Source: a virus. From it: a DNA stretch of 64,000 nt. A model generated the notes under the pieces. The model ran no database searches and was not told the origin of the DNA. It saw only the letters and a program-made list of their open reading frames with translations. This document shows positions 2,570 through 64,000 of the stretch, one piece after another (position 1 is the first letter of the stretch; each line of letters opens with the position of its first letter). The position numbers and the translations under genes are program-made. The stretch is from positions 21,586 through 85,585 of IMG/VR virus record IMGVR_UViG_3300024264_001700. One strand, written 5' to 3'.

Positions 2570-2603
2570 TAAAAAACTAATATATACTATACTAAAGGAG
2601 AAA

Positions 2604-2855: not shown

Positions 2856-2856
2856 T

Positions 2857-3775: not shown

Positions 3776-3790
3776 TAAATGCGTAAAAGG

Positions 3791-3798: not shown

Positions 3799-3829
3799 CA
3801 TGTAGCGCAGCATACCCAGGAGTTACGAG

Positions 3830-19013: not shown

Positions 19014-19020
19014 ATGAATT

Positions 19021-22339: not shown

Positions 22340-22358
22340 TAAAATATTTATAACACCA

Positions 22359-23949: not shown

Positions 23950-24170
23950 TCTGCTAATACCAATTTTATATCTTTGCCAGGCCCTACTTTACTAGGCAAA
24001 TCTCCATATTGGGTTATATACCATTCTATTACAGCACAATACCAATTTTGACTGTTATGGTGTGCTAGTTTATTAAACTGATGTATATTATTATTTGTTG
24101 CTTCCATAGTACTTAATGCTCTTGCGCTTTCTATTTGCAATTCTCTAAGTGACAATTTTTCTAAATTCAT
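23946..24170 (-). CDS. Small orphan protein in radical SAM operon
   Basis: A 74-residue protein of unknown function. The N-terminus is a Leu/Glu-rich helix; the middle has NNNIHQFNKLAHHNSQNWY and then a WY-rich helix; the C-terminus is charged and ends in LAE. Four-base overlaps on both sides make it a genuine gene in operon B. It has no Gly-Gly leader or core-peptide look, and only one Cys. It is one of two small proteins in the island that could be a substrate, carrier or adaptor. Confidence 0.65.
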   Translation of the reverse strand: MNLEKLSLRELQIESARALSTMEATNNNIHQFNKLAHHNSQNWYCAVIEWYITQYGDLPSKVGPGKDIKLVLAE

Positions 24171-25556: not shown

Positions 25557-25558
25557 TT

Positions 25559-27071: not shown

Positions 27072-27076
27072 ACTTT

Positions 27077-27105
27077 ATTATACTTTATTTTTTATTGTTT
27101 GTCAA
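27077..27105 (-). promoter_or_regulatory. Perfect sigma70 promoter of operon B
   Basis: Minus strand TTGACA (27100-27105), exactly 17 bases, TATAAT (27077-27082). The ATG at 27071 follows after AAAGT, so transcripts probably begin at the start codon. The promoter overlaps the 3' end region of operon C's last gene. Drives 13 genes. Confidence 0.8.
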
Positions 27106-40843: not shown

Positions 40844-40871
40844 TTAGTTCTACCCTTCGACTGTATTATAT

Positions 40872-40879
40872 TATTTATC
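40872..40879 (-). promoter_or_regulatory. T4-type late promoter (GATAAATA)
   Basis: GATAAATA on the minus strand about 29 bases before the ATG at 40843, with AAGGGTAG as ribosome site between. It fits late expression of the tail gene downstream. Confidence 0.6.
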
Positions 40880-40891
40880 GTATTTTTGTTA

Positions 40892-42793: not shown

Positions 42794-42794
42794 A

Positions 42795-44861: not shown

Positions 44862-45464
44862 TTAGACTCCTGACAAACTTTGGATTCTTACAGTGTAGTC
44901 AATTTGTATTAATCGGTTTAAACTTTTTTGTACAGGATGGAAGATAACATGTGTTATTAATCTTCCGTCGCCTGTAGGACTATAACTACGTAATCCTAAC
45001 TCGTCGAACACAAATGGACTTTCTTGAGTATTTGCATTATCAAATGCATCTTGTCCAGCTGGTTCGCCATAATCAAGTAAGCATGATACAAAAACATCTG
45101 TATAGTTTGTGCCACTTACGTGTCTAATTTCTAGTTTATTACGTGCAGGATCTGTATTATTAGCATTTCTGTCATCTACAATTTTGCTAAATGTTTGTCT
45201 ATATAAACTGGCATTAGTTCCAGTTGTGTTTGGTGTTAGATATGTAATTATACCAGTTGGGTCTACACTAGTCCCACCACTTCCAAAACTCATTTCACTA
45301 ATAAAACCTTGTCCTGCATTACTTAAACTTTCTGCAAGAGCAATACTCATATTCTCATAGTGGATTGCATTTCGCTTATCGATTAAAATCTCGTTAGATT
45401 CTGGATCAAAGATCTTTATATGTCCTTGTACAAGAATACCACTTTTATCATTAATATCTGTCAT
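44862..45464 (-). CDS. Virion structural protein of marine phage type
   Basis: A 200-residue protein (DKSGILVQGHIKIFDPESNE at the N-terminus, KRNAIHYENMS next). This start resembles a small structural protein common in marine phages. AGGAAAA precedes the ATG and a late promoter lies 20-26 bases upstream. Beta-rich, no membrane segment. It sits in the position where T4 has gp8-type wedge genes, but I cannot show homology. Confidence 0.7.
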   Translation of the reverse strand: MTDINDKSGILVQGHIKIFDPESNEILIDKRNAIHYENMSIALAESLSNAGQGFISEMSFGSGGTSVDPTGIITYLTPNTTGTNASLYRQTFSKIVDDRNANNTDPARNKLEIRHVSGTNYTDVFVSCLLDYGEPAGQDAFDNANTQESPFVFDELGLRSYSPTGDGRLITHVIFHPVQKSLNRLIQIDYTVRIQSLSGV

Positions 45465-45482: not shown

Positions 45483-45490
45483 TATTTATT
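45483..45490 (-). promoter_or_regulatory. T4-type late promoter (AATAAATA)
   Basis: AATAAATA on the minus strand about 19 bases upstream of the ATG at 45464. It overlaps the last codons of the giant gene, so the 200-residue protein and the tail genes after it can be transcribed without the giant gene. Confidence 0.65.
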
Positions 45491-48400
45491 CCAATAACCC
45501 ACTGTCACTGTCACGTACGAATCTAGCTATATTATTATTAGATTCAACAAGTGATTCCCCAGGAGTTGTCCATGTTTTTCCGATTTTTCTTACTACTGTT
45601 ACTTGTAAATTTTCTTGTGGTACAAAATTTAGTATTAAAGAATTTGATTTCCAAGATATTCCATTCCATGTAAATATATATTCACTTTGCATATGCTGTG
45701 TGCCTATAGTTGGACTTAGTGGTCTTGTATTATCTGTAAAGTCAAACTCTGGTAATATAAATTCTCCTGGAGTTAAAACATCTCCTTCGCTCGAATCTAA
45801 TGCCAATGTTTGATCAAAAATATCTATTTCATTTTTTCTAAGTCTTCTACCCGCATAAAATACTTCAAATTCATTTAAATTATTAGGCACAAAATCTAAA
45901 GCAAAGTTACTCGATATGCCATCAGTTGTAAAGTTTTGTGTAATTATTTGATCTCTGTACGGAATTGTTTTTGATATTCCTTGATCAAAAACATTAGTTC
46001 CTGCATTGATTATATCCTTTGTACCAGTACCGAGTGTTCCTCGTCTTAGCTGTCTTAATAAATTACCTTCTTTTACTAGATATTCAATACGTTCGCCTTC
46101 AATAAAAATTACACCAGGTATATTTTTACCTTTATTAGGTTCAGGTAATTTAGTTCCGTCTATAACTTCAATACGCAAGTCATAATAATTTAAATCTTGT
46201 GATAATGTAGTAGTAGCACTATCTAATCTTTTAAAGTGTGTTCTGTTTAACATATCTTTAAACTGTCTAAATGCAAAGGTATTAGTTACTACTGGTGCAG
46301 CAAAATGTATAATATCTATTACATCGTTAGGATTAGGTAATTCTAAAAGTTGTACTTTTTTCAAGTCACTAGTTATATGATAATCTACAGTAGGTGATAA
46401 TAATTCACCATTTATACTTACCCAAACATATTGTGCATCTATAGCAGGATAACGTAGTTCAATTTCACCTCTAGTAAGTCTATGATAAATTACAAACTCA
46501 TCTTGACCTTCGGAAATAATCGATCTAGCAACAACGTCTAAATTGATTCTTTCAGTTTGTAATATATCGTGATTTGTAAATTTAATCACTTCAATTAAAC
46601 TATTATCTGCGGGCGGCACTTTAAATGTTACATCTGTTCCATCTATTGTATATTCGCCGTCTGTTACAACATATATTTCAAGAATATCACCTTCATTTCC
46701 TGTGCCAGGTGTTAATTCTATAGCATTATTAAATATATCAAATCTCCACTGTGCAGGGAAAGTTATAGTTTCTCCATTTAATATTACAAGTAAATCGTTA
46801 ACAGTAATAGATGCTCCGGGCTGCTGGAACAAATCTAAACTATACTGTGTAGTACCTACTAGTTCTTCGCTTAATTCGTCATACTCAACTATTCGATTAT
46901 TAGAATCAACAACAAACTGTTTGTTATATCCTGGATTTAATATTTTATTATCTACTTTTATAATTGTATTATGTTGAGTTGGTAATTTATACAAAGGAGA
47001 TTGTGTTAAATTATATAATACACTCGAACCATCACCTTTAAATACGTCTTTTGTAACTTGACTATAATTTATTTTTGTGTTATCATAAAATACAATATAA
47101 TTTACCTGAGCATTCTCTGAAGGCGGAGTATCAAATCGTATTAAAAGATTTCCTTTTAAGTTTTTGTTGGTACTATCAGTTGAGTCGTAATTTACTAGAG
47201 TAGTGCTTACTTGTACGCCGTCAATAGTTGCAAATACATCTAATAGATCTGTGTAATCAACATCAACAATAACTTCGTATTTTACGCCATCGCCGACAAA
47301 TGCATCAGCTGTTAGTATTTTTTGTTGTCCTGCACTAATAGTAATAATGTTAAGTTCTTTTTCACTATCTGGTACTTCATTTAATGTTACTGTGTTATTA
47401 ACAAAATCAATAGTATACTTGTCATTTGATAATATTACATTATCTAATTTTACTATTACAGCATCTTTAGTACTAGGAGTAAGTTCTAAATTAAATTCTA
47501 CAGTACCGTCAGTTTTATAACTTTGTGAATAAATTTTTCCTTGTCCGTCACCTTCTCTATGATATACTTTAATATCAAGAGTATCTACTAGTTGTCCTGG
47601 AACAAGTTCTTCAGGACCTTTAGACGTTGTAGGTGTAACAAAGCCGTCACCGTCAACAATAATATCTTCTGCATTTATACCCTGGGCAGTTTGATAGTTT
47701 AAATCTCCGCCACTAAGTGCCGTATCGTAACTTTCTGTATCCGGAGTAACACTGCCGTCACTTGTATTTTTTCTTATAATTAATACATCTCCATCAGCAA
47801 CAATAATACCCAACTCATCTAGGAAAATTGTATCTGTTGTGCCGTCGCCGATCAAGCTATTAATTATTACACCGGTATAATCAAATTTGCCGCTATCAAA
47901 ATTTGGATCATCAATTCTTACACCGTTAAGATATACATTATATTCTGTATCTTGTTCTAATGGCTGGCTTAATTTTATACTAATAGTTGAACCGTCAAAT
48001 GTAAATATTTCATCTTCATATGTATTATCATATATGTCCCATGAAGTACTATACCATTCTCCAGATCCCCAACCAGCAGGTCCTTCAAAATCAAAACTTC
48101 TTACTTCAACGCCGCCGTAATCAACACCGTCCATAAGTTGTGCAAAATTCATCGAACCATCATTGTTTTCACCTATACCAAACATTCCTGTAGTAGGATT
48201 GTATCCGTATGCTAATCTATCTTGTGCAGTAAGCATACTAATAGGCTTATAATAATCAATTACAATTTCTGCACCTACATTAGGCGGAGTAGTAAATATT
48301 ATTTGTCCTTGTTCTCTTGTATAAGTTTTATCTAAATTTTCTGTATTTGCAAATGTATAACGACTTCTTAATTGTTCTTTATTATCTATTAATACTTTTA

Positions 48401-51400
48401 CTTTGGTATTATTTAGATCCATAGGAAAATTTAAGTCAAAAACAAATTTAGATCCTGTTCCGTAGTAAGTTTCTGATTCAGTTAATTCAGCAATATATAC
48501 GTTGCCACTAATTCTATCAAATTTTACTTTAATATTTGCTGTACGTGCAAGACCGTTACCTAAAATTACACTTGCTGTTGCAGATGTACCATCGTCTTCT
48601 TGTGAGCCTATAATTTCAATATCTGGTTTAGATATGTATCCTGATCCAGCATTAGTAACTTTGATTTCTACAATTTTTCCTTGGCTTATATAAGCTTCGG
48701 CTGTTGCATTCTGGCCGCCGCCGCCGGTTATAATAACTTTTGGCTTTGTAAGATATCCTGATCCTGGATTTGCTATTTTAATTTGTGTAATTTCGTATCC
48801 TACATTATCTAACCAGTGCTTCCTTGGATACTCGAGCATAATATCATCTATGCCTATAAGTTGTGTTTCTTGTGCTTTAACTTTAGAAGTTTGTATACTT
48901 TTTGTATTTTCAGAATAAAAAGGAGGTAAATCAAAATCTGTTGTGGAGCTTCTTGTATTATCAAAAGCATCATAATCTGTTACAAATTCTCGTATAGTCG
49001 AACTATATGGTTTTGCTTCATTAATAAAATCTGTATAACTTGGTAAAGTATTGTTTTGGAAGTTTCTAGGCTGATCTAAAACTCCTTTATTATGTTTACC
49101 TTTTATAAAGCTAGTCTTAAATGCCCAATCTACATTATTTTGTTCTGAGAATATATATCTTAAACTTGCAAACCATAACTTATTATATTCTACAGATAAG
49201 TTATCTACAAACAAATTATCTCTTATTGTTTCTAATATAATTCTTGTTTCTTTAATAGGCTGAGAATCGTAAAAATAACTATCGTATGAACGATTGTCAT
49301 ATCCGATAGAGTTACCTGCTAAATCATATAATGCATCTGAGAATTGTATAGAACCGTTTTGTCTGCCTATAGTTTCATAATTTACTGTATAGTCATCTAC
49401 AGATTCATTTGCTATTTTACGCAATAATAACCAACCGCCTGTACTAATATTAGCAATTTTTACTGTATCGCCTATTGTAGCCTCTAATCCTAATAATTCA
49501 TAACTTTGGTCTACTTCGTAATCGATATCAGTAAATTCATTTATACCTTCTTGGTACCAATCAATATAATTCCAAAATAAGTTAACATCAAATTCTTGTA
49601 CTTGATATCTAAACCAGGTTTTTTCATCATAGTTTAATCTATAAATTGACCACTTGCCGAATACTGTTGAATCATTATTAACTAATACAGAAAATGGTCT
49701 AACACTTATTAATGTATTGCTTTCATAATTATTACCTTGTGATTCTACATTTATATTTGTAATTTGTCCTAGATTATTAATTGTAATATCAAAAGAGGCA
49801 CCATTACCGTTACCTATAATAGAATATGTAGGAGCAACTTTGTAGCCTCTACCAGGATTTATAATTCTAACTCTTACAATTCTACCATTTTGTATAACAG
49901 GTTCAAGTATTGCCTGTTCTGCTTTCGATATACCTACAAATTGTAATTCTGATGTTGTATCAATTACTGCATCATATTGACTACTTAATTGAGTAGGTGC
50001 AACTTGTGCTTGTGATAATGGACTTAAATTATATAAATCAGCAATGATATTCTTTTTGAGTATCATATTCACACGTTCTATTACTTGCTTCAATGCTTCT
50101 TCACGGTTAACAAACATACTTTGTCTTGGTCTAAATTTGTTTCCATATCTATATTTTGGAGAAAGTGTGATATCCGGAACTACTTTAAGATTTGTATCAT
50201 ATCCAACAAGACTATCAAACCATTTTTGTTCTATTTCTGTATTCAATCTACTTGTTTCAAGACCTTCACTTATAATCTGATACTGATTATGTACATTTTG
50301 GTCTATTGTATCTTCAGTCCATCTTATCGATAAAACAATATCTTTGTTATTAATAAAAGAACTAATATTGTGCATTGTTAGTCGATTAGCTGAAAGAAAG
50401 TTTACATGTCGATACCCTTGTGCAGAAGGATTAGTAATTAATTTTGTAACATCTAATGCACTAATTGTTCTATCTTCTAAAGACGGAACTGTTGCTTTGT
50501 TCTTTACCCAGAAGTAGTTTTTAACAAAATATGCATTAGATACAGAATCATAAAACGTTTTTTGTGTATAGATTGCATCACTGTATATACTCTGGCCGCT
50601 GACGCCTTTTAATAATCCTTCTTCGGTATCAGCAATTTCGTCATACTCACTAGGTGTAAATTCTGATTCTACCCATTCGTATACATCTACACTTGTATTA
50701 AATTCTAATTTATTAAATGCACCATTTTGATAAATCGTGTCGCCTTGATAAGGGTATGTAAATCTAGCTTCGCTAATGTCCCACCATAATTTTCCAACGT
50801 TTTCTTCAGCCCAAAATTTCTCTTCATCGTATACACCTGCAACTGCACTTACATTATATCGAGCAGGATCAAACGGAATCTTATATGTTAATTCTTGTTC
50901 TGCAGGACCTGCAATTTTTCCTTGTATCGGATCTATCCAATCTAAGTAAGTTAGTATTTGATCTGTTCTTTTGTTATAAAGGAAAATATTTTCAATTTTA
51001 CTTGTATCAACTGGAGCAATTTTTTCTCTTGTTTTAGTCCATGCTGTTTTACCCGAATCTTTACGATATTCTAAAACTGTTCCTCTAGACTTTTGATTTA
51101 ATGTTCCGTCTGGCAATATAATAGGAGCAGTACGTGTCCACTCTGTATTATCAAAGTCTCTATCTTCAATAACTAAGCCTGGAGTAATATCAGCGTTAGC
51201 AACATATGCTATACCGTCATATTCTACTATAGAGCCTTTTTTGTACGATTTATTTTTTGAAAATACATCGTAATCGTTTAAGATCATATTTGTCATACCC
51301 ATATAGACATGATTATTATTAATTTTTAAATTTTCACCTAACAATATTGCATCTTTATCACGTAAGACTAGATCTTCTGCAAAAAGATATTTCTGTTCAA

Positions 51401-54400
51401 TTTTTTCATAGTGATAAACTACACCCGAATCTTTATTAGAACCTGCAAATCTAGTAAAGTTATTATCAAACGCAGTTTCGCCTGTATCAAAAATAGTAGG
51501 TATTACACTATCGCCGTTTGCACTAGTAATAAAAATGCCATTATTAGTTGCAGCTACAGTAAAGCCAAACAATTCAGATTCTTCATTGCTAGGACTATAT
51601 AGCATTTGACCTTTTGTAAATCTTGTTCCATTAAACTGATATACATGGACCTTACCTTGATCTATTTTATTAATATCATCAAATGGTTCGCCGATTGCTA
51701 TAGTGTTTCCGTCTGGACTGATTGATATAGAATTAGCAAAACCGGTATTTGGTATATCTGGATAGATAGACTGATCTAAATAAAATTTATCATTAATCTT
51801 TCTATATACTAAAACTATAGTTTCAGGAGTTGAATTTGTTTCTTGTGTACTAGTTGTAATTAGAACGTCACCTGTAGTACTTAATTCAAATTTTTCACCA
51901 AATCTAATTATGTTAGTTTCTGGATCAAAAAATACTTCATCTTTAGCATTAAATTGCTCTGTCCATTCATTTGGATTAAACCTGCGATTTAATTCAATAC
52001 TATTAGGAGTTATATCATCATTTGCTTTATACAGTTTTTCGTTATACACTACAATCGAATCAACATTATACGATGCATTTTTATCAAAATCTGCAAAATC
52101 ATATGCAACAAATCCACTATTGTTAGGAATGTAACCTAAATAATCGATTCCAGTTGGAACAATATCCCATTGAAAATAGTTAAATGACGAATTTGCCGAA
52201 ATGTTAGTTTTTGCAACAAATAACCTATTGTTTCCGCTATCAGGACCATCATATTTTACTATTTCACCAGCTCTGTATGGTATTACAGGATCATATTCTC
52301 CTCTATAATCTTTATCAATACCGTAAACAAAGCTTATATTTTTCCAGTATAAATTATTTGTAACTAATATAGGATTATTAATATCTTGAATAAAATTAAT
52401 TAATGTTTCGTAGTATTCACCTCTAAATACTACAATATCTCCTTGCACATAATCTAAGTTTAAATCAAACTTACCGCGATATCTTAATGATTGCTCATCA
52501 TCAAGACCATGTGTTAAAAATTCTATAGTACCAAAGTTATTTAAAGACTCGTCGCCTTCTGAACTTACAGAAATATAATATTTACTATTAACTTGTTTTA
52601 CATTTATTCTAGATCCAAACTTTCTGTCATTTCCTCTATACCTAGAAACTATACTTCTAATGTATGTATATGCGCCGTTTTCACTACGTCTATATACAGA
52701 TATAACACCTTCATTATCAAATTTCTTTTCGCCAAAACTATCAACCGGTATGTTATATACTTGTGTATAATCTTTATTAAACGAACTAGGTAAACTTGCA
52801 CTTCTCGAATCACCACTTCTAGTTTGCTCATTATATAACCAGTATTCGTCATTTACTAAGTCTGCATTCTCCACAAGTGGCATAAAGAATGTTCCTGTTG
52901 AATCATTTATTACGTTATTTTTTACAACAAAAAGTTTGCCTATATTATCAGCTGTGTTTACAAGTGAAAATCCTACATCAACACTATCAATAACTCCCAT
53001 ATCTCTATCTGGATCAGCTGCTCCTCTATATAAGTCATTACCTAATCTAGTAAATTCATATCTAGCAATATTAGTATTGTATAATTCAAAGTTTCCGCCA
53101 TAGGTAGTACCGTCGTACTCTTGTAGGATTTTTACATACACTCTTACACGTAGGAAATCTCTTTGATAGAACATTACTTCTGCTGCACTAGTATTGTAAC
53201 TGGTTAATGCAAGTCCGCCAAATTCATTAAAAGGTATTTGTTTATCAACAATTATATCTCCACCATTTGGTCTTTCTGTAAGAACATTTCCTACATAATG
53301 ATATCTAGCCTGCGGTTCAAATGGATCTCCATTAAAATCAAATTCTGAATATTCAAATTCAATAAATCCATCCCAGATATCAAATACATCATGAGATTTA
53401 TTTATAATACTATCTTGAAATCCAAATTGTGTTAAATCAGTAGTAAAGTTTTCGTTTGACTGTAGTTCTAATTTTATACTTTCTCCTGAAACTATAGAAT
53501 TAAATTCATCAGTGTTTGGAGTTCTAAATACAAATATATCTGCAGGATAATCTGCTGGGGTATTATAAGGATTTCCTGAATAAGATAAATTTAATATTTG
53601 ACTTGCTTGTTTTTTTATTCCTGTATAATCGCCTATTGTAGATGTTGTATTAAGTAAATTAAAATATTGATTCTTAACTCTAGATTCTTCAGATCTTACT
53701 AAGTCTACATATACTAAACCATTTCCAGTATCATAAAACTCAGTACCATTATTATAAGGGTCTGTTTCAATAAGCCAAAATCCTCCTACTACATCAGGTG
53801 TAAGATTTTCTGCTATTAATGAATATGTACCAACTAGGTTATCATCATTTACAAACATAACTCCTGTTTGTTCAAAAACTCCGGTTGTATTTTCTAGATA
53901 TAAAACAGTAGTTCCGCCTTGTTCTCCTACAAAAACAACTGTTCCGGCTGCTGTTGTAGTTTCTAAAAAATCTCCTATTATTGGAAGAACAGTATATTCC
54001 GGGATACGTACTATAACTTCTACCTTGTTTTTAATTTCAAACGCACCTGTTAAGTCTGTAGCTTTAATATCTAATAAGTTATTCCATGGCTCGTATGCAT
54101 CATTTATATTTGGATTGTTTTTCGAATATAAATTATATTGTAAATGTATAGTGTCTCCAACTGATGATGCAAGATACTGTTGTAGAGGTGCTCTAACTAA
54201 TACATGTCCTCTTCCTGTCTCAGGGTTATTGACATAGTTATTATTAAGACCAGGAGTTCCAGTAATTAATAATGCTAATAATGTACTATCAACTGTATCG
54301 TCATTAATAAAATCAGTGTAACTACCGAAAGTGTTATACGACTGGCTGCCGATTGCTGGTAAAATATCTCTATTTGCTCTCCATAAACTTTCTTTATAAT

Positions 54401-57400
54401 TTACAATATCAGATTTACTATATGGCAAAAATGGATCAAAGTTTTCTTTATATCTAGTTCTTACATTTGACGCTGTTGGAGAGCCTACAAACAAATAATT
54501 TCCGTCAGGTGTATATGCAACCGAAGTACCGTATCCTGATTCTGCCTCATCACTACTAAAAATATCTCCACCTGATGTTAAAGTTTGATCTAAGGTCCAT
54601 GAACTAATATCATTTGATCTACGATAAACGTGTACTCTACCATCTAATTCTTTAGGAGATCCTACAACCATATTTCTGTTATTAGATGTTACATCTAATG
54701 TCGATGCATAATCATGAAAGGAGCCGTCGTCAGTTGTAGGATTTTCTACACTACTTTGTAGATTGTATACTTCTTCATTTCTATATACTCCCCAGTTAGA
54801 ATCTCCGTCAATATCATCTACCCAAATCTGTTGATTAAGTGCTTTATTTTGTTGTAGGATAGCATTTGCACTATCTAAATCTGTACTTCTTACTGATCGT
54901 AGTCCGACTACTTTTAAATCTAAATCATCGTTATGATCAACATCTACAAACTCTGGAAAATCTTTTTGTAACGGCCATTCAACTATCACGTCATTTCTAT
55001 TTTTTTGTATTACTTTGTAGAAATTTACTATACCAAATAGTTCTGCATTAATAACAGAAATATAATCGCCTATTGCAATATCTGTAGGAAATTTATTAAA
55101 CGTAAATCTTACTAACGGATAATCCGAGTCTGGAGTAGTAGTAAGATTTAAATTAACTTCTGATGTTCCAACTAATGTTAGATTTAATCTTGTAAATTGA
55201 TGAACATTCCAAGTATTATTATCAATAGGAGACCAAATATATTGATCTTCTATTAATTGATTTACGTTAGCATAAATTATGTCTTCAAAATTTACTACTT
55301 TAAAATCTACGTCTCCATTATATACATATCCGCTAGATTTTATATACTCGTCAAATTTAGCCGTTGTAGGGAATGGTGAATTGTTATAATTTTTTGATTT
55401 GTGATATAGCTCAAACGGACGTTGTCTATAAACTTTATCTGTATTATCTTGTGGTAGATAATCAACAAGTTCAATAGGTTGCGGCGAAAGTAGCATACTC
55501 TGTTCATCTAATACAATTTCTAATTCTTCTTTTTTATCAACTGATCCGTATCTGCCTACTTGAATTGCCCATTCTTCATAGAACTCTAAACTATCTTTGT
55601 CTGCTGTATTCAGTGCATCAAATAATTTATCAAGTGCATTTTTTGTGCCTTTTTCTTGTATAAATCCTTGATAGAATTTATACTGACTAACATCATCGTT
55701 GATTATATTTGACAAATATTTTCTATTTTGATATCCTAATAGATGTTGAGCAAGTTTTTGTTTTTCTATATCAAAATTGTCACTATCTAAATCATAAAAA
55801 TCTGTAAATTCACTAATTCTATAATCAAAATTTGTAAGTAACTGTGATTTTGGTCTTTCATCGAGTATTTGCCATTTAGATGTACTAAATGTTTCATTAC
55901 CAGGAATATTTTCTAAAGCTACATAATAAAATTCTTTATATTTTATCAAATCACCGATAACATAATCTTGCCATTCTTGCCATTCAGTTACTTTTGCATC
56001 GTCGAAAACAAACCCAGGTGCATTAAGTGTACCATTCCATTTATCGCTTCTGTATCCTGAAACTTTTATTCTTTCTTGTCTATAACCTGTAGACGGTTTA
56101 TATATAATATCGCTAAATTGTGTAGTATTATCTAGCAGCACAACATGCTCTTTTTGCACGAGAGGAAGTTTTATGTGATATACTCCGTCTTCAGTGTTTG
56201 CTAATCCTATGCTAAATCCCGTCGCGGATCTAGCTATTCTACTAATATCTGATTTAATTTGATTGCCATCTGCATTTAGAATTAATCCATAATCATAAAA
56301 ATTATTATTAAGATTATCTACGGTTACAAAAGCTCTTTCAAAATCTATTAATTCTGCACTAGGACTTATAGATAATGCATTTCCTGGTGCCCAGTTTTGA
56401 GTTGTCCAGAATAAAAATTCTCTTACTGCATATGTCCAGTTTTTAATATTATTAGAGCCAGCAAATTGTTCAAACTTGAAGCCTAGTTTATTTAAATATT
56501 CTCCATAACCTATTAAAAAGTCTACTACTTCTTGACTAGTTCTTAATGTTTCACCGTAGTTAAGATAACTTGTAATAGAACTAAATTTTTGCGCTACGGT
56601 TGCAGATTTTCCACCTACAACTGGTGCTTCGGAAAGTCGAGCTAAATTAGTATCATCAAATTGCGCATTACTTTTATAATTTTTTATTACTCTATAAAAT
56701 ACTGTTCCGTCTTCGACAACTTGACCTTTATAATAATTTTTTTCCGGTTGCCACTTAACAAATTCTTCGCTAACTCCTCCTACCGAAATTGCCGGATCTG
56801 AAAATGAAGTAATCGGTTTATAATATGAAAATTGCGGTTTAGCCGGATCATAACCTTTAATTATATAACCAGATGCACTTTTTTCTACAATTACACCACT
56901 GTAACTAGCAATATCGATCGGTGTACTTTTATGTAAGAATATTTTATAGTTTTCTTCAGGTACAAATACATTACCTTGATTATAAGGTGTTCTACTGTCT
57001 AGTATTAATTTAAACTTATCTTTATTACTAAACCCAGCTATTTTAAAACCCATTTTGTTTTTAATTGATTTAACATTGTTAGTATAATCTTCGTATACTT
57101 TTGTTACATAACCTGAAATATAATTATACTGGTAATTCACTAACCCACTTGTATAAATTCTTTCATCATCATTATACGTATTAGGAAATTTAATTTTTTC
57201 TAATTCTATACTTTTTCCTGTAGGAGTGTAAACTAATTGTCCGCAGAAATTTCTAGACATTCTAGAAATATCAAAAGCAGTACCAAGTACTTTAGCTGGT
57301 TGATTTAGTAAGTAACTAAGAAGTATTGCAAAAGGATATTCGCTTGAATTTCTCCATGCTGCTTCTACTGGAGCAGAATCTCCAAATGTAAATCGTTGAC

Positions 57401-60400
57401 GTGTATAACTTGCAACATAATTCTTTGCAAAATTACTTTCTAACGGAGCAGTTAAATTTCCTCTATCGTCTACAGGAATATGAGATACTAATCCCGGTCT
57501 TATATATTTTGGATTTCTAATAGGTAATTTTCCTGGCTCTCTTATCAAGCCTTCTTGTAAATCTTCCCATAATACTAAATTATTTTTTGTATACGGAGCT
57601 ACTCCATAAACTTCGTCCCACCAAGAAGGTTTGATTGTAAACCCTATCATTTCCCATGGATGACTGTGTGGTCGATCTGTATCATATGCTTGCTTATAAA
57701 TACCTCTCCAAAATCCTGGCAAGGTTTCATCATTAGGTCCGGTCATTGAAGAATAATTTATTAAAAATTTATCTGATCTATTATAAAAACTATTTTCTGT
57801 ATAATCTTCATCAACTATTTGATTCCATTGCAAGAAATCAATCAATAATGTATTATCTATTTCCTGTTTAGTAAATTTAGTATCTCTATAAAATCCTCCA
57901 ACATAATCATTAATGTCAAAGATATTAGGATTATAATCTACTTTAATATTATTAAATATTCGTTTTTCAAATTCTAATAATAAATCATCTCGATAGTCGT
58001 TAAATGCTACAGTAATACTTCCGTCGTGTCCTTGTATTACTCGTGTAGGTTCTCTAAATCTATCATCAATATAAATTTTTGGTTCGTAACTAGGATATAA
58101 TCCTAATTTTGTAGGTGTAGGCGGAACATACGATCCATCTGTCGAACTATACTCATAAATTTCAATAGTATCGCCAACTTCTTTATCGGCTACGATAACA
58201 GCAAATCCTTCAGAACTAAATGTATAATCACGTCCTTTTAATAATTGAGTACCGTTCAAATAAACATTAACCGCAGTAGTGCTTATTATGCTGTCGTCAT
58301 AAGCGTTGCTTATTGCAAAAAACGGATTTGAGTCATCTAGTACTTCGTAAACTAATCGTTTACCTGTATTATAAGATATCATATCACTAAAATAAAATGG
58401 CATATTAGATGTTTTATCTTTATTAATTTCTAATAATATTTTATTTAAATGCTGTATTACTGGCCCTGAATATCCTAATTTTGTAGAAGTTTGTATAAGC
58501 TGTCTTTTAAATTTTGCATACTCTTGTTTAGAAAATCGTAAAGCACTTACAATGTTATGTTCTTGAGAATTTAAATGATAATTTGCTAAATTTACAGGTC
58601 CAGAATGTTTCATAAATCTAGTACCAAACTTATCAAGATCTCCTAAATCTCTTAAATTACTTTTTCCAGGATATGTACCGTCAAATTTAGGAATTTCACC
58701 TATCATTGTATTGACATGGTCTACAACTTCTCCTAATGTAAAATCAACTACATTTTCATTTAATGGATTTCTTTCTAAGTTATTAGGTATTTCATAAAAT
58801 CCATTTTTAGATTTAGGACTATTTGATAAAGTTTTTATAATTACAATTTGATTTTCTTTTAAATCATTTGTAAATGTTACAAAAGTTTTTTTATTAATTC
58901 TATCTATTTGATAATCTACATTTTCTTTTTGAAATCTGTCATTAACAAATACCTTGACTTTTAAATCTGTTAGCAAAGTTGAATTTTCGTAAACATCAAT
59001 TTCAAAGTTATTATTTTGTTGTAATGTAGATGTATATTGTCTAATAACATACTGTTTTGTTATTGTAGGTTGAGATGCCCAGCCGTTTTGATATTTAAAA
59101 TCTTCTCGACTTGTATATTTTCTTAAATATGCATTATCTGTATAGACTGTACTAGTACCAGTTTCACTTTGTATAGTAAATGTATCTGATAATAAATTAA
59201 AGTCAAACACAATATCGCCACTATTATCTATAGTTCTATAGCTTAAAGGAAATCCTAATTCTTCATCAGGAGTTCCGGTTCCTTCTCTATAACTAAAAAG
59301 CTTTGTTCCTGTAAAATTTGAACCTTCAAATATAGTAGAGTCGCCAAAATCGTTTCCATTAGGACAACATAAATCAAATTTAGGAGGCTGGTTAGTTTTT
59401 GTTTTTAATTGTCCTAGATTCCATTTGTTATTAGTAAAATGATAACTTTTACCTGCATTATTAGTACCCTTTGTAACTAAAACAGTTTCTAAATCTAATG
59501 GATTAGAGTCATCAGTTTCAAATAAACTTATTTGTCTATAACCTTGGAAGTTCAAAAACTTTACAGTGTATATTTTGTCTTTGACAAGTATATCTGTATC
59601 AGCAGTAAAAAGTATTCTCATACCTTCAGTTATGTCAACACCGTCGATATTATAGCCAGATGAGCCTTCTATAATAGAAAATACATCTGTTGTAAAATCA
59701 TCAATAAGATCAATATCTTTTTTTGCAAATGTTCCAAAATTAAATAATTTTAATCCTGATTCAAATTCAATAATAGGACGTTTAGCTCTAGCATCTTCAT
59801 CAATATTAACTTGTGTTAAATTAATTTCAGCACTTTTATCTATAACATCTCTATGAATCCATCTATTATATCTAGACCAGGCGTTTTTATCAATTGCTGC
59901 ACGATTAGAAACAATATAATCTTTTGTTGCAGGATATGAATTATTATTACTCCATGGTAATATATCAAATCCTTGGGAGTCAAACGGCACTAATTTATTT
60001 TCAGAATATGATGCAGGAATAATTAAATCTATAGTGTTTACTAATCTAATCTTGTCACCAACACCCTCAACATAATACTGACCTGTTTCGTAACTTTGTG
60101 GCACTGTATCCCCAAGGAAGTATACTTTCATTCCATTTGAAACACTCCAGCCATCTTTTGTTGTATATTCTTTTTTACCTAATATTTCTGCTGCTATATC
60201 GATAGTTGTATTTTCTTCAATATCATATACTCGGATATTGCCACTAGTATTCACATCATTTTTTGATATGTAAAATAATTTATCAGGCGCATTATCAGGA
60301 ATAGTAAATTCTATAGTTCCCTTTTCGATATATAAAGTTGCAATTTCTTCATCGTCTTCATTCAGTTTTCTTATTCCATCTGGATAAAGTGTAGAAATAT

Positions 60401-61232
60401 TTTCAGCATCGTCTTGAAAACTAACTATACCGTCTGCAGGTATTACAAAAAAATCACCTGGTTCAGACACAGCACCCTCTTCGTTATATATAACTGAATT
60501 ATATAAATCGGGGCCACTTGAATCATCTCTTCTGCCAGTTAGTAATGCTGACCCGGGTGTAAAAGTTCGTGATAACGCAAATGCCATAGGATGACCCGGA
60601 GTATCTATTTCAAATTTATAAGTCTGTCCTCTATATAATTTTAAGTTAGGATTTCTACTAAATCCATTTGGAGAAAATACATAAGCAAAATTATCGTCGT
60701 CTTCTTCTAATGTAACTGTGTATGTACTCTCAATTCCTCTTTCTTGACCTTGTATTGCAACAGGCTGCGGTCCTTCAGGTATCCAGTAATATTCACGAAA
60801 GTTTACAAATTTATCCCAGTCAATGCCAGGGTTCCATGCATACGACTCTTGAGAGTTTAATTTGCTGTGATTAGCAACTGATCCTGAAAAATTATTTACA
60901 GAATTGATATAATCAACATAGTCTCCATAAAATTTTACATTGCCTAAATTATCTTCTATTACAGTTGCAGGTTCAAATTGATAGTTTTCTCTATCTGATG
61001 ATATATCTCCGATATAATTATCTGTAGTAGTATTATATGATTTGGCATGCTTTCTTCCAAAATATCCTGATAGTTTTTCTGCTGTGCCTGGTTGTGTTAA
61101 TTGATCTAGTGTTGCTTGTAAAAAATTAATATTTGCAGTAGTTCTAAAGAATTTTGGTAATAGATTACTTGTTTTTCTTTCAGAATCTCCAGGAACTGGC
61201 AAACTGTATTCGTTTTGATTATTATTAGACAT
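45486..61232 (-). CDS. Giant baseplate/tail structural protein, 5248 residues
   Basis: One uninterrupted reading frame of 5248 codons with AGGAGG upstream of its ATG. It follows a gp6-like gene, the place of gp7 in T4, and its NTT/NFREYYW-rich N-terminus fits marine phage structural proteins. Seven CBM5/12-like units (Y..G..V.Y.G..Y.A pattern, ending in W) lie at about residues 1490-3370. Three VYRRS/VYRK and SPDGN-type propeller repeats lie at about 2160-3290. Two NPGxGY...GGGG units lie at about 3780 and 4150. The C-terminus has DNTRPLSPTIGTQHMQ. It is far longer than T4 gp7 (about 1030). The sugar-binding-like units suggest contact with the host surface. No processing site was identified. 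Confidence 0.8.
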   Translation of the reverse strand: MSNNNQNEYSLPVPGDSERKTSNLLPKFFRTTANINFLQATLDQLTQPGTAEKLSGYFGRKHAKSYNTTTDNYIGDISSDRENYQFEPATVIEDNLGNVKFYGDYVDYINSVNNFSGSVANHSKLNSQESYAWNPGIDWDKFVNFREYYWIPEGPQPVAIQGQERGIESTYTVTLEEDDDNFAYVFSPNGFSRNPNLKLYRGQTYKFEIDTPGHPMAFALSRTFTPGSALLTGRRDDSSGPDLYNSVIYNEEGAVSEPGDFFVIPADGIVSFQDDAENISTLYPDGIRKLNEDDEEIATLYIEKGTIEFTIPDNAPDKLFYISKNDVNTSGNIRVYDIEENTTIDIAAEILGKKEYTTKDGWSVSNGMKVYFLGDTVPQSYETGQYYVEGVGDKIRLVNTIDLIIPASYSENKLVPFDSQGFDILPWSNNNSYPATKDYIVSNRAAIDKNAWSRYNRWIHRDVIDKSAEINLTQVNIDEDARAKRPIIEFESGLKLFNFGTFAKKDIDLIDDFTTDVFSIIEGSSGYNIDGVDITEGMRILFTADTDILVKDKIYTVKFLNFQGYRQISLFETDDSNPLDLETVLVTKGTNNAGKSYHFTNNKWNLGQLKTKTNQPPKFDLCCPNGNDFGDSTIFEGSNFTGTKLFSYREGTGTPDEELGFPLSYRTIDNSGDIVFDFNLLSDTFTIQSETGTSTVYTDNAYLRKYTSREDFKYQNGWASQPTITKQYVIRQYTSTLQQNNNFEIDVYENSTLLTDLKVKVFVNDRFQKENVDYQIDRINKKTFVTFTNDLKENQIVIIKTLSNSPKSKNGFYEIPNNLERNPLNENVVDFTLGEVVDHVNTMIGEIPKFDGTYPGKSNLRDLGDLDKFGTRFMKHSGPVNLANYHLNSQEHNIVSALRFSKQEYAKFKRQLIQTSTKLGYSGPVIQHLNKILLEINKDKTSNMPFYFSDMISYNTGKRLVYEVLDDSNPFFAISNAYDDSIISTTAVNVYLNGTQLLKGRDYTFSSEGFAVIVADKEVGDTIEIYEYSSTDGSYVPPTPTKLGLYPSYEPKIYIDDRFREPTRVIQGHDGSITVAFNDYRDDLLLEFEKRIFNNIKVDYNPNIFDINDYVGGFYRDTKFTKQEIDNTLLIDFLQWNQIVDEDYTENSFYNRSDKFLINYSSMTGPNDETLPGFWRGIYKQAYDTDRPHSHPWEMIGFTIKPSWWDEVYGVAPYTKNNLVLWEDLQEGLIREPGKLPIRNPKYIRPGLVSHIPVDDRGNLTAPLESNFAKNYVASYTRQRFTFGDSAPVEAAWRNSSEYPFAILLSYLLNQPAKVLGTAFDISRMSRNFCGQLVYTPTGKSIELEKIKFPNTYNDDERIYTSGLVNYQYNYISGYVTKVYEDYTNNVKSIKNKMGFKIAGFSNKDKFKLILDSRTPYNQGNVFVPEENYKIFLHKSTPIDIASYSGVIVEKSASGYIIKGYDPAKPQFSYYKPITSFSDPAISVGGVSEEFVKWQPEKNYYKGQVVEDGTVFYRVIKNYKSNAQFDDTNLARLSEAPVVGGKSATVAQKFSSITSYLNYGETLRTSQEVVDFLIGYGEYLNKLGFKFEQFAGSNNIKNWTYAVREFLFWTTQNWAPGNALSISPSAELIDFERAFVTVDNLNNNFYDYGLILNADGNQIKSDISRIARSATGFSIGLANTEDGVYHIKLPLVQKEHVVLLDNTTQFSDIIYKPSTGYRQERIKVSGYRSDKWNGTLNAPGFVFDDAKVTEWQEWQDYVIGDLIKYKEFYYVALENIPGNETFSTSKWQILDERPKSQLLTNFDYRISEFTDFYDLDSDNFDIEKQKLAQHLLGYQNRKYLSNIINDDVSQYKFYQGFIQEKGTKNALDKLFDALNTADKDSLEFYEEWAIQVGRYGSVDKKEELEIVLDEQSMLLSPQPIELVDYLPQDNTDKVYRQRPFELYHKSKNYNNSPFPTTAKFDEYIKSSGYVYNGDVDFKVVNFEDIIYANVNQLIEDQYIWSPIDNNTWNVHQFTRLNLTLVGTSEVNLNLTTTPDSDYPLVRFTFNKFPTDIAIGDYISVINAELFGIVNFYKVIQKNRNDVIVEWPLQKDFPEFVDVDHNDDLDLKVVGLRSVRSTDLDSANAILQQNKALNQQIWVDDIDGDSNWGVYRNEEVYNLQSSVENPTTDDGSFHDYASTLDVTSNNRNMVVGSPKELDGRVHVYRRSNDISSWTLDQTLTSGGDIFSSDEAESGYGTSVAYTPDGNYLFVGSPTASNVRTRYKENFDPFLPYSKSDIVNYKESLWRANRDILPAIGSQSYNTFGSYTDFINDDTVDSTLLALLITGTPGLNNNYVNNPETGRGHVLVRAPLQQYLASSVGDTIHLQYNLYSKNNPNINDAYEPWNNLLDIKATDLTGAFEIKNKVEVIVRIPEYTVLPIIGDFLETTTAAGTVVFVGEQGGTTVLYLENTTGVFEQTGVMFVNDDNLVGTYSLIAENLTPDVVGGFWLIETDPYNNGTEFYDTGNGLVYVDLVRSEESRVKNQYFNLLNTTSTIGDYTGIKKQASQILNLSYSGNPYNTPADYPADIFVFRTPNTDEFNSIVSGESIKLELQSNENFTTDLTQFGFQDSIINKSHDVFDIWDGFIEFEYSEFDFNGDPFEPQARYHYVGNVLTERPNGGDIIVDKQIPFNEFGGLALTSYNTSAAEVMFYQRDFLRVRVYVKILQEYDGTTYGGNFELYNTNIARYEFTRLGNDLYRGAADPDRDMGVIDSVDVGFSLVNTADNIGKLFVVKNNVINDSTGTFFMPLVENADLVNDEYWLYNEQTRSGDSRSASLPSSFNKDYTQVYNIPVDSFGEKKFDNEGVISVYRRSENGAYTYIRSIVSRYRGNDRKFGSRINVKQVNSKYYISVSSEGDESLNNFGTIEFLTHGLDDEQSLRYRGKFDLNLDYVQGDIVVFRGEYYETLINFIQDINNPILVTNNLYWKNISFVYGIDKDYRGEYDPVIPYRAGEIVKYDGPDSGNNRLFVAKTNISANSSFNYFQWDIVPTGIDYLGYIPNNSGFVAYDFADFDKNASYNVDSIVVYNEKLYKANDDITPNSIELNRRFNPNEWTEQFNAKDEVFFDPETNIIRFGEKFELSTTGDVLITTSTQETNSTPETIVLVYRKINDKFYLDQSIYPDIPNTGFANSISISPDGNTIAIGEPFDDINKIDQGKVHVYQFNGTRFTKGQMLYSPSNEESELFGFTVAATNNGIFITSANGDSVIPTIFDTGETAFDNNFTRFAGSNKDSGVVYHYEKIEQKYLFAEDLVLRDKDAILLGENLKINNNHVYMGMTNMILNDYDVFSKNKSYKKGSIVEYDGIAYVANADITPGLVIEDRDFDNTEWTRTAPIILPDGTLNQKSRGTVLEYRKDSGKTAWTKTREKIAPVDTSKIENIFLYNKRTDQILTYLDWIDPIQGKIAGPAEQELTYKIPFDPARYNVSAVAGVYDEEKFWAEENVGKLWWDISEARFTYPYQGDTIYQNGAFNKLEFNTSVDVYEWVESEFTPSEYDEIADTEEGLLKGVSGQSIYSDAIYTQKTFYDSVSNAYFVKNYFWVKNKATVPSLEDRTISALDVTKLITNPSAQGYRHVNFLSANRLTMHNISSFINNKDIVLSIRWTEDTIDQNVHNQYQIISEGLETSRLNTEIEQKWFDSLVGYDTNLKVVPDITLSPKYRYGNKFRPRQSMFVNREEALKQVIERVNMILKKNIIADLYNLSPLSQAQVAPTQLSSQYDAVIDTTSELQFVGISKAEQAILEPVIQNGRIVRVRIINPGRGYKVAPTYSIIGNGNGASFDITINNLGQITNINVESQGNNYESNTLISVRPFSVLVNNDSTVFGKWSIYRLNYDEKTWFRYQVQEFDVNLFWNYIDWYQEGINEFTDIDYEVDQSYELLGLEATIGDTVKIANISTGGWLLLRKIANESVDDYTVNYETIGRQNGSIQFSDALYDLAGNSIGYDNRSYDSYFYDSQPIKETRIILETIRDNLFVDNLSVEYNKLWFASLRYIFSEQNNVDWAFKTSFIKGKHNKGVLDQPRNFQNNTLPSYTDFINEAKPYSSTIREFVTDYDAFDNTRSSTTDFDLPPFYSENTKSIQTSKVKAQETQLIGIDDIMLEYPRKHWLDNVGYEITQIKIANPGSGYLTKPKVIITGGGGQNATAEAYISQGKIVEIKVTNAGSGYISKPDIEIIGSQEDDGTSATASVILGNGLARTANIKVKFDRISGNVYIAELTESETYYGTGSKFVFDLNFPMDLNNTKVKVLIDNKEQLRSRYTFANTENLDKTYTREQGQIIFTTPPNVGAEIVIDYYKPISMLTAQDRLAYGYNPTTGMFGIGENNDGSMNFAQLMDGVDYGGVEVRSFDFEGPAGWGSGEWYSTSWDIYDNTYEDEIFTFDGSTISIKLSQPLEQDTEYNVYLNGVRIDDPNFDSGKFDYTGVIINSLIGDGTTDTIFLDELGIIVADGDVLIIRKNTSDGSVTPDTESYDTALSGGDLNYQTAQGINAEDIIVDGDGFVTPTTSKGPEELVPGQLVDTLDIKVYHREGDGQGKIYSQSYKTDGTVEFNLELTPSTKDAVIVKLDNVILSNDKYTIDFVNNTVTLNEVPDSEKELNIITISAGQQKILTADAFVGDGVKYEVIVDVDYTDLLDVFATIDGVQVSTTLVNYDSTDSTNKNLKGNLLIRFDTPPSENAQVNYIVFYDNTKINYSQVTKDVFKGDGSSVLYNLTQSPLYKLPTQHNTIIKVDNKILNPGYNKQFVVDSNNRIVEYDELSEELVGTTQYSLDLFQQPGASITVNDLLVILNGETITFPAQWRFDIFNNAIELTPGTGNEGDILEIYVVTDGEYTIDGTDVTFKVPPADNSLIEVIKFTNHDILQTERINLDVVARSIISEGQDEFVIYHRLTRGEIELRYPAIDAQYVWVSINGELLSPTVDYHITSDLKKVQLLELPNPNDVIDIIHFAAPVVTNTFAFRQFKDMLNRTHFKRLDSATTTLSQDLNYYDLRIEVIDGTKLPEPNKGKNIPGVIFIEGERIEYLVKEGNLLRQLRRGTLGTGTKDIINAGTNVFDQGISKTIPYRDQIITQNFTTDGISSNFALDFVPNNLNEFEVFYAGRRLRKNEIDIFDQTLALDSSEGDVLTPGEFILPEFDFTDNTRPLSPTIGTQHMQSEYIFTWNGISWKSNSLILNFVPQENLQVTVVRKIGKTWTTPGESLVESNNNIARFVRDSDSGLLE
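51135..56760 (-). repeat. Seven CBM5/12-like repeat units within giant protein
   Basis: Coding repeats near 56640-56760, 55865-55990, 54340-54445, 52335-52475, 52165-52305, 51960-52090 and 51135-51265. Each has the pattern of a Tyr, then KGDIV or similar, a short Tyr-x-x-x-Tyr strand, an Asn/Ala turn and a terminal Trp. The last four cluster in 1.4 kb. These resemble small chitin- or polysaccharide-binding domains; identity is by pattern only. Confidence 0.5.
51360..54760 (-). repeat. Propeller-like (FG-GAP-type) repeats within giant protein
   Basis: Three stretches (about 54470-54760, 52510-52830, 51360-51910) encode VYRRSxD, GxSVAYTPDGNYLFVGSP or SISISPDGNTIAIGEP and similar lines. These are typical of beta-propeller or integrin-alpha-type repeats and are interleaved with the CBM-like units. 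Confidence 0.45.
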
Positions 61233-64000
61233 TAGTAACTATAACCTCCTGAAGAGCTACTTGAATTTGATACAAGAACATTCGATTGTACTCCTGTATT
61301 ATTTTGTGCAGTTGCACTAACTACTTTTCCATCTACTTTTAATTTTTTAGCTGAAATTTCATTAATTACTTCAATGTCCGAAACAGTTGCAGCATTAATG
61401 AATACTTCGTCTGGTTCAGATTTTATTTCAAACAAACTTCCAAATACCTGTGAATCTTGTTTTGGTACAATTAATAAACTTGCAATATTAGGACTCATAT
61501 TACTCATAATATATGTGCTAAGTTCTTGGAAGTAAAATGTATCTCCAAAATCCCAGTTTTCAGATGCAAAAAACTTATTAATATAATCAACTACTGTTGA
61601 CTTTAATTGATTATCATTTAAAACTATACTAGGATTTTTTACAATTTTAAATGTTACTTGTAATTCTTCGATTGCTTTATCTCCAAATAATGGTTTATAT
61701 TTTACAGGATGATAAATTATTTCATCGCTTATACTTTTTATTTGGTTCAGTTGACCACTGTAATTTAAGAATAATTGATCACTACTTTGAGGTATAGGTT
61801 TTATATCTAATTCATTAGAAAGCCAAAGCCTATACTGTACATCATAATCTCTTGTTAAAAGGTAGGTATCTATAATATTTGATAACGCAGGATCAATACG
61901 TTGATCATTGTCAGCTGTATGTAAATAATGAAACTTAATTTTTTCTCTACCCACATATGCTCTGTAGTCACTTGTAACATAAGTATTATTCTTTATTTTA
62001 TCAATATACTTGAATACATTTGTCTCAATAATATAAAAGACTTGCTTATCATTATATACACTAAAAGATCCTATGTTAGATTCTGTCGAAACTATTATAA
62101 TTGTGTTATTACTGTTATCGAAATATTTAAAATCTTCTGTTTTATCCTCAGTAATATATTTTTCTTGGAATATAAACTTATTAGCAATATTAGTTGAAGG
62201 GCTAACAATTTCTTCAAATAATTCTATATCGTCATATACACCATCATCGTCAGAATCAAAGAATGTAACTTCAATTTTTTTACTTTCGATATATCCTGAA
62301 CTATCTCTATACGCATCTGATATTGACCATGCAAAATCTCTTGTAAACGGCATTAATTCATCAGGCTTTTTATTAATATTCAATACATTAATTTTATCTT
62401 TAATTGTTTTACCTGTTTTACTATCATATATTTTATCAGCACTATCAAAATAAAATTTAATTTCACTGTCACTTTCAAAAATGTATCTTAAATTTCTATA
62501 ATTTACATTATAAGTCTCGCCGTCAGTTTTAAAGTAAAAAATCCAACTTGAATCTAAATTTTGTTCACTAGTGTTTCCGGCTTTTCCTAAATTAAATTCG
62601 TTTACGGTATCAATGTTTTCTGCTAAAATAATTTTCCACTGTCTATCAAATTGATCGTAACGTAATCCAAAATCATTATATGCAAATGTTTGATCGATAA
62701 TTTGAACAATTACATCTGGTAAAAGATTTTCAGCAAGCTTTGGTCTTATTTCTGTAAGTACTGCTCCTTGAGGTACATTGTCGTTTAAGTATATCGGTCC
62801 TAATGTAGAATCTAAATCTTTACCGTCATCGGTTATACTAATAACTTTAGTCCATATGTATTCTTTGCTTCCTGGATGATCAGCATCGCCTAGCATAAGA
62901 GTATTGTCTTCCATAAAATGATAACCGGACGGTGCTAAAAACTTTAACATAGTTTCTGCTTCTAATAGTCTTAGACTATTAGCAGTAAATGTACCTACTG
63001 CTAACGGATCTCCGTCAGTATCACTCAAATTACCTGTGGTTAAATTAGTATCATTTGTACGTGAATTCCATGAAGCATTTAAATCATCAACTATAATTTT
63101 ATTGTACTTAGAAAGATAAAAATTCTTAATATTGTTTGAAGATAAAATTGGTGTTATAGTATTGTATATAAATCCTTCAATATCTGACTGTGTAGTAAAA
63201 TTAAATTTCTTTAAAATATTATAATCTTCTTTATACAGAATTCCATCGTTAGCATATAAATTTGTAGAACTATATTTTCCAGTAGTGTCTTTTAAATCAA
63301 AATATCTACTTATTCCACTACTTAATCTGTTAACTGATTTTACCTTTGTTATGTCTTGACTCACTGCGAGTGGGCCTACATTATAATCTTCAGCTGTAAT
63401 CATTCTATTTTGAGTGTAGTAAGTAGCTGGAGCATTTTGTTTAATTTCAGCATTAGTTTCAGCAGGTGAAGAATTTGATACATTTGTTTTTAAACTAAGT
63501 GTAATTGTAAGTGTTTCTGAATTATTAGCTTTTGAAATATAAGGTATTTCAATGTTTATATTTGCCATACCTGCTGGAGATATATTCATAAATCTATTAG
63601 CACTTGTTCTATAATATAGCTTATAATTCCCGCCTGGAATATTGCCAAAGACACCGTCTGCAAAAATTAAATTAATTCTGTCATCAACTCTTGACCCTAC
63701 AGCAAAAATATTTTTAATTTTTTTGAATAAACTATTATAAATTACATTGTTACCTTCAACAGTATCAACCTTAGTCCATAATTCTGTTTCAAATCCGTTT
63801 AGATCTAACCCGTATAACCAAACATCACTATTATTAATATTAGGAGTGTCTATAGATACAATTTGATTTGGCGTAGGATTACTAACAGCAAAATTTCCAA
63901 TTTTCAAATCTCCTTGACGGAAATGCATAAAAAATCCTGTATTAGAACTACCGGCGCCTTTGCCATCGTCTCTATATAAAAATGCTGGATTATTATATAG
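61232..64000 (-). CDS. gp6-like baseplate wedge protein, 5' end cut by window edge
   Basis: The frame stays open past the Met at 63928 to the window edge (upstream codons give LYNNPAFLYRDDGKGAGSSN then TGFF), so that Met is internal and the gene is longer than 898 codons. NAPATYYTQNRMITAEDYN (about 170-190 residues after that Met) matches the segment of T4 gp6 and other baseplate J-like wedge proteins. The C-terminus is Ser-rich (SNSSSSSGG). Its TAA shares one base with the giant gene's start. Builds the baseplate wedge with the giant protein. Confidence 0.8.
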   Translation of the reverse strand, partial: LYNNPAFLYRDDGKGAGSSNTGFFMHFRQGDLKIGNFAVSNPTPNQIVSIDTPNINNSDVWLYGLDLNGFETELWTKVDTVEGNNVIYNSLFKKIKNIFAVGSRVDDRINLIFADGVFGNIPGGNYKLYYRTSANRFMNISPAGMANINIEIPYISKANNSETLTITLSLKTNVSNSSPAETNAEIKQNAPATYYTQNRMITAEDYNVGPLAVSQDITKVKSVNRLSSGISRYFDLKDTTGKYSSTNLYANDGILYKEDYNILKKFNFTTQSDIEGFIYNTITPILSSNNIKNFYLSKYNKIIVDDLNASWNSRTNDTNLTTGNLSDTDGDPLAVGTFTANSLRLLEAETMLKFLAPSGYHFMEDNTLMLGDADHPGSKEYIWTKVISITDDGKDLDSTLGPIYLNDNVPQGAVLTEIRPKLAENLLPDVIVQIIDQTFAYNDFGLRYDQFDRQWKIILAENIDTVNEFNLGKAGNTSEQNLDSSWIFYFKTDGETYNVNYRNLRYIFESDSEIKFYFDSADKIYDSKTGKTIKDKINVLNINKKPDELMPFTRDFAWSISDAYRDSSGYIESKKIEVTFFDSDDDGVYDDIELFEEIVSPSTNIANKFIFQEKYITEDKTEDFKYFDNSNNTIIIVSTESNIGSFSVYNDKQVFYIIETNVFKYIDKIKNNTYVTSDYRAYVGREKIKFHYLHTADNDQRIDPALSNIIDTYLLTRDYDVQYRLWLSNELDIKPIPQSSDQLFLNYSGQLNQIKSISDEIIYHPVKYKPLFGDKAIEELQVTFKIVKNPSIVLNDNQLKSTVVDYINKFFASENWDFGDTFYFQELSTYIMSNMSPNIASLLIVPKQDSQVFGSLFEIKSEPDEVFINAATVSDIEVINEISAKKLKVDGKVVSATAQNNTGVQSNVLVSNSSSSSGGYSY

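Follow-up and report, generated by a model that had tools for sequence, protein, structure and literature searches.

A 5248-residue protein encoded after gp6 in a marine phage: a probable baseplate wedge protein with an inserted propeller module

Main finding

The giant gene described here is, by sequence profile, a member of PHROG 10938, a known family with no assigned function, and its product almost certainly belongs to a phage tail-tip baseplate machine. We consider it probable that this protein takes the BW3 role, that of T4 gp7 and P2 gpI, in a large T4-related marine myophage, with an insertion and a tail at the baseplate rim that may dock fibres. Giants at the position of gp7 are already documented. 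The part that appears new is the module of propeller and CBM-like units inserted into the protein, together with its differing extent across relatives; the open-access literature searched held no account of such a module.

The giant gene and its marine relatives

The window (the whole stretch of DNA analysed, 64,000 bases) forms the end of an IMG/VR record of 85.6 kb, an incomplete metagenomic contig. Its minus strand carries a single open frame of 5248 codons at 45486-61232, with an ATG start and one terminal stop. This frame accounts for 15,747 of the 64,000 bases (24.6%), as the first-pass annotation had noted in describing an unbroken frame over a quarter of the window, while the longest run in 30 shuffled windows of the same composition was 203 open codons. 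An AGGAGG ribosome site lies upstream of the ATG at normal spacing, and the stop of the gp6-like gene overlaps the start (TAATG). The predicted product has a mass of 596 kDa, a pI of 4.6 and three cysteines only.

The IMG/VR scan for relatives of residues 767-1750 revealed 288 encoding stretches, of which 80 loci were retained. The frame is split in none of these loci and runs unbroken to the end of the available sequence in all except L045. In the latter, a stop at 18922 lies 9 bases before the sequence end and leaves 3680 codons, which is either a contig-end error or a truncated copy. Complete marine relatives have 4.9-5.2 kaa, dozens of them uninterrupted, and 58 sequences align end to end, mostly with 42-60% identity to the giant. 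Comparison of the giant with L008 or L011 gave dN/dS values of about 0.2-0.5, well below 1 in every section; these are rough, with dS near saturation. The dozens of uninterrupted relatives and the dN/dS values below 1 confirm that the frame is a real gene. An assembly artefact or a fused frame, conceivable for a metagenomic contig, is refuted for practical purposes by the presence of 98-100% identical sequences on three IMG/VR contigs with separate names (L006, L007 and L009) and by the similar length of the 42-60% identical relatives.

Family membership and orthologues in jumbo phages

PHROG 10938 (virion structural protein) matches the first 1750 residues with an E-value of 2e-221, and the profile built from the marine family gives an E-value of 0 with the PA5oct and Atu_ph07 proteins. 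Matches of 24-30% identity were obtained by tblastn in the jumbo phages PA5oct, Atu_ph07, SCTP-2, RaK2, 121Q, CBB and others. The orthologues are 3857 aa (PA5oct gp355), 3326 aa (RaK2 ORF070), 3340 aa (CBB_236), 4449 aa (Atu_ph07 gp180) and 3807 aa (SCTP-2 gene 140) long. The orthologue comes after a gp6-type wedge gene in every jumbo phage inspected. The gene for gp25 is located upstream in CBB, and a gp25-sized wedge gene occupies that place in PA5oct. The gene preceding the orthologue in SCTP-2 is a hypothetical gene of 3096 codons (4630-13920 of L005), so SCTP-2 may have an enlarged gp6 as well.

Orthologues have been detected in virions. CBB_236, which adjoins gp6 (CBB_237), was represented by 21 peptides (PMC5259590). 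In phAPEC6, 17 virion peptides were assigned to the 382-kDa gp245, which adjoins a 131-kDa baseplate wedge protein (PMC7247149); from its size and position, we infer that gp245 is an orthologue of the giant. The PA5oct record labels gp355 'ESI-MS/MS'.

Genomic neighbourhood

The following genes surround the giant gene:

61232..63928, minus strand, gp6-like baseplate wedge subunit; 898 aa present, cut by the contig end (about 1150 open codons in relatives)
45486..61232, minus strand, giant gene; 5248 aa, PHROG 10938
44862..45464, minus strand, gene immediately downstream of the giant; 200-aa protein, PHROG 11259
39329..44858, minus strand, three tail-fibre-like genes (687, 633 and 504 aa) whose first ~120 residues form a common module

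The giant gene directly follows gp6, which is the position of a BW3 gene. The order gp6-giant in the window extends to gp25-gp6-giant in the near-identical L006, where gp25 is directly upstream of gp6, and PA5oct, RaK2 and CBB have this order too; a gp25 gene is present in the contigs of 8 of 8 relatives. This gene order and the mass spectrometry of orthologue virions support the earlier proposal of a baseplate component at the place of gp7.

The three fibre-like proteins differ behind their common N-terminus; one has a Collar domain and another a Peptidase_G2 autoproteolysis domain. The combination of a common N-terminus with different C-termini fits docking to one platform, and these proteins are candidates for docking onto the giant.

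At least eight radical SAM/SPASM-type proteins are encoded within 16 kb on the minus strand of the window (17613-33303), a possible peptide- or sugar-modifying cluster. Radical SAM genes are also found downstream of the giant in Atu_ph07. Bases 1-21600 of the same contig, ahead of the window (L095, L096), encode a Nol-like carbamoyltransferase, a DNA polymerase, UDP-glucose dehydrogenase, a nucleotide-sugar epimerase and a QueE-like radical SAM protein. A search of genome collections for the host yielded matches in MAGs of unrelated bacteria alone, on contigs that were taken as co-binned phage and set aside.

Domain organization

The family profile matches the jumbo phage proteins in two blocks, an N core (residues 1 to about 2020) and a C core (about 3400 to 4100). 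The protein thus has a conserved core of about 2,700 residues and an inserted block of about 1,400 residues. The two blocks are almost contiguous in RaK2, where the matches stop at residue 1769 and restart at 1793; the middle of the giant was therefore either gained here or lost by RaK2. The following features were mapped:

55173..61232, minus strand, conserved N core, residues 1-2020; common to RaK2, PA5oct, Atu_ph07 and SCTP-2
60993..61169, minus strand, LPxxFR N-terminal segment, residues 22-80, from the alignment
56640..56765, minus strand, CBM5/12-like unit 1, residues 1490-1531, in the core
55869..55991, minus strand, CBM5/12-like unit 2, residues 1748-1788, in the core
55527..55841, minus strand, KGT helical segment, residues 1798-1902; five helices predicted, within the 100-residue bin of highest conservation
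51033..55172, minus strand, lineage-specific insertion, residues ~2021-3400; predicted FG-GAP propeller with domains inserted
54573..54737, minus strand, propeller unit, residues 2166-2220
54453..54551, minus strand, propeller unit (first strands), residues 2228-2260
54318..54452, minus strand, CBM5/12-like unit 3, residues 2261-2305
52341..52481, minus strand, CBM5/12-like unit 4, residues 2918-2964
52164..52307, minus strand, CBM5/12-like unit 5, residues 2976-3023
51957..52097, minus strand, CBM5/12-like unit 6, residues 3046-3092; found by Pfam too
51756..51920, minus strand, propeller unit, residues 3105-3159
51591..51752, minus strand, propeller unit, residues 3161-3214; Pfam FG-GAP_2
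51375..51587, minus strand, propeller unit, residues 3216-3286
51132..51272, minus strand, CBM5/12-like unit 7, residues 3321-3367; found by Pfam too
48933..51032, minus strand, conserved C core, residues 3401-4100
49728..49925, minus strand, GSGY-type beta repeat, residues 3770-3835; resembles a stretch of tailspike Dpo31
45489..48932, minus strand, variable C tail, residues 4101-5248; repeats recognized by eye
48531..48794, minus strand, GSGY-type beta repeats, residues 4147-4234

A PDB sequence search with residues 1-5000 and a profile search with residues 1-1000 gave no match. The C part also matched phrog_460 ('head closure Hc2') and phrog_701, but these hits were attributed to the repeats and discounted.

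The inserted propeller

The insertion contains a Pfam FG-GAP match (PF14312, E-value 1.3e-5), and a profile search gave weak matches to integrins and phage tail proteins. An AlphaFold model of residues 2150-3345, based on an alignment of 40 relatives, is nearly all beta (mean pLDDT 82, pTM 0.72). Foldseek matched it to integrin alpha headpieces, WD40/DDB1 and lactonase propellers and one Milano baseplate chain in the PDB, and to FG-GAP proteins of phages and giant viruses among viral models. TM-scores over the whole query were low (0.05-0.18), as explained by the domains inserted between the blades. According to this model, the middle block is a propeller of the integrin FG-GAP type with small CBM5/12-like domains in between; it is not a blade-by-blade match. 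The model stops at residue 3345 with the last blade incomplete, so the blades may number 7 or 8.

In the lineage of the window, CBM5/12-like units and about 480 residues of other sequence separate parts of the propeller. Propeller units are also present in the more distant marine relatives L098, L099 and L101, where they are compact. The first-pass annotation had described carbohydrate-binding-like units interleaved with propeller-like repeats. Both Pfam and the structure prediction confirm the two kinds of unit and their interleaving over residues 2166-3367; the two CBM-like units at 1490 and 1748 are located in the core, outside the interleaved part. The predicted fold is that of an integrin alpha headpiece, a fold analogy only; calcium-binding DxDxDG loops of the integrin type are absent from the giant's propeller. 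Alpha-I integrins also have a large domain inserted between propeller blades.

CBM5/12-like units

Seven CBM-like units are present in the giant and in L006, L007 and L009, six in L008 and four in most other marine relatives. Their number is two in L098, L099 and L101, and 0-1 in RaK2, PA5oct, Atu_ph07 and SCTP-2. Pfam assigned the units to CBM_5_12 (PF02839) with an E-value of 4e-8, and Foldseek matched chitin-binding domains with a probability near 1, though with E-values above 0.1. The WW pair of the chitin-binding motif AKWWTQ (PMC6222997) was found in 0 of 263 CBM-like units. The units are similar to the module by which the Milano tailspike (gp124) is anchored to the baseplate: spike residues 80-118 match a CBM-like unit, and residues 100-115 within this stretch contact BW3. 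The Milano contact and the missing WW pair favour an anchoring or structural role over sugar binding. For the same reasons, the earlier suggestion that the protein also reads the host surface is not upheld by these units.

A wedge protein whose insertion is a receptor-reading head, binding host glycans or surface proteins directly, is a credible, if unlikely, alternative. It would agree with the Pfam CBM_5_12 and FG-GAP matches, the variable number of CBM-like units among relatives, the faster evolution of the insertion (dN about 0.6 versus about 0.3 in the core, with lower identity as well) and the lectin-like Laminin_G domains of the S-SSM4 giant. The absence of both the WW pair and the DxDxDG loop, however, speaks against such a head, as do the anchoring of a spike to the baseplate by similar units in Milano and the dedicated fibre genes that come after the giant.

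Relation to gp7 and other BW3 proteins

T4 gp7 was rejected as a direct sequence homologue: hhalign comparisons of whole blocks and of 350- and 141-residue windows revealed nothing significant. Profile searches of whole records with Tail_P2_I and PF23786 gave no match in the giant's family. When windows of the giant were compared with P2 gpI, those covering the KGT segment were the top three of 139 and landed on the KGT of gpI (E-value of 0.007 for one comparison at best, 0.0085 for another window). Against T4 gp7, the segment aligned at the KG motif, not significantly. Its motif reads KGT or KGS in every jumbo relative compared. We regard the alignment with gpI as a hint of homology. In a model of residues 1400-2040, the KGT segment has a pLDDT of about 29-46, with helices that lack confident packing, and Foldseek of this model gave no match to a wedge protein. 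Low confidence of the segment alone, combined with its very high conservation, would fit folding on partners. Homology to gp7 is suggested by position and by one weak KGT motif.

Precedents for large proteins at this place come from the Kyanoviridae. A protein of 5195 aa is annotated as gp7 in Prochlorococcus phage P-SSM2, and CYXG_00059 of S-SSM4 has 6932 aa and contains the FYSxKG...LFK.LY motif of T4 gp7 (E-value 7e-6). The motif and the annotation together show that giants in the slot after gp6 can be gp7. The first-pass ratio of five times the length of T4 gp7 is correct (5248/1032, or 5.1-fold) and omitted these precedents. S-SSM7 possesses two genes with the annotation gp7, each about 3,000 codons long (L112, 13980-23003 and 24069 onward), with one structural gene between them.

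The giant may instead be an additional peripheral baseplate protein encoded after gp6, with the true BW3 elsewhere in the genome, which we judge unlikely. The contig is incomplete, the giant has no sequence match to gp7 or gpI, and the pair of genes in S-SSM7 indicates that extra peripheral giants occur. The constant place after gp25-gp6 argues against this reading, as does the KGT segment, which is among the most conserved parts and aligns to the KGT of gpI.

Proposed role

As a BW3 protein, the giant would contribute its N core (with the LPxxFR start and the KGT helical segment) and its C core to the wedge, packed with two copies of gp6 and with gp25. T4 gp7 has six copies per virion (PMC3004832), and by analogy each baseplate may hold six copies of the giant. 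The parts protruding at the baseplate rim would be the propeller insertion and the variable C tail. Their likeliest role would be docking and linking the tail fibres encoded downstream and relaying the contraction signal; the rim part may also touch the host surface directly. BW3 holds the receptor-binding proteins of T4, A511 and pyocin, is predicted to do so in P2 and Mu, and carries these proteins in most studied myophages (PMC10811340).

A bolder version, in which the wedge protein has an interchangeable sensing head of integrin-like build that contacts the cell and relays binding directly into the wedge, seems quite improbable; if true, recognition and trigger would reside in one polypeptide. 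It is highly improbable that the giant is cleaved as a polyprotein to give several separate proteins of the virion. The modular make-up, the size and the peptide coverage of just 7-8% for orthologues (PMC5259590, PMC7247149) would be compatible with cleavage, but Pfam finds no protease domain in the giant and the order of the cores is constant in all relatives though the modules between them vary.

The protein following gp6 thus ranges from about 1,000 residues in T4 to 3,300-6,900 in several large-phage lineages. The stable core and lineage-specific modules of the giant provide a map for baseplate cryo-EM of RaK2/PA5oct-type phages. Caution is also needed with 'carbohydrate-binding' Pfam matches in phage tails, which need not imply carbohydrate binding.

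Comparison with known systems

The closest counterparts are the jumbo phage proteins. PA5oct gp355 and RaK2 ORF070 have N and C cores homologous to those of the giant and, like CBB_236 and phAPEC6 gp245, are encoded right after gp6. The CBB, phAPEC6 and PA5oct orthologues are virion proteins by mass spectrometry. The RaK2 and PA5oct proteins are shorter and devoid of the FG-GAP propeller, with at most one CBM-like unit. Both cores and the same gene place are also shared by Atu_ph07 gp180 and SCTP-2 gene 140. At the insertion site, the former has about 1,500 residues including GSGY-type beta repeats and no propeller, and the latter has a short stretch where the giant has its propeller.

The Kyanoviridae giants of P-SSM2 and S-SSM4 are equal to or larger than the giant and, like those of S-SSM7, occupy the same place after gp25-gp6. 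Their core is not detectably homologous to that of the giant; the repeats alone match, and cyanophage matches considered as core homologues proved to be GSGY-type repeats. The S-SSM4 protein (L088, 3788-24586), which shares these repeats with the giant, combines the KG motif with YHYH and Laminin_G domains and has no propeller or clear CBM unit.

The BW3 proteins of smaller systems differ from the giant in size (176 aa in P2 gpI and 1032 aa in T4 gp7) and share no significant sequence similarity with it. T4 gp7, P2 gpI and pyocin PA0619 all follow gp6, as does the giant, and a KGT-like motif may be a further common feature.
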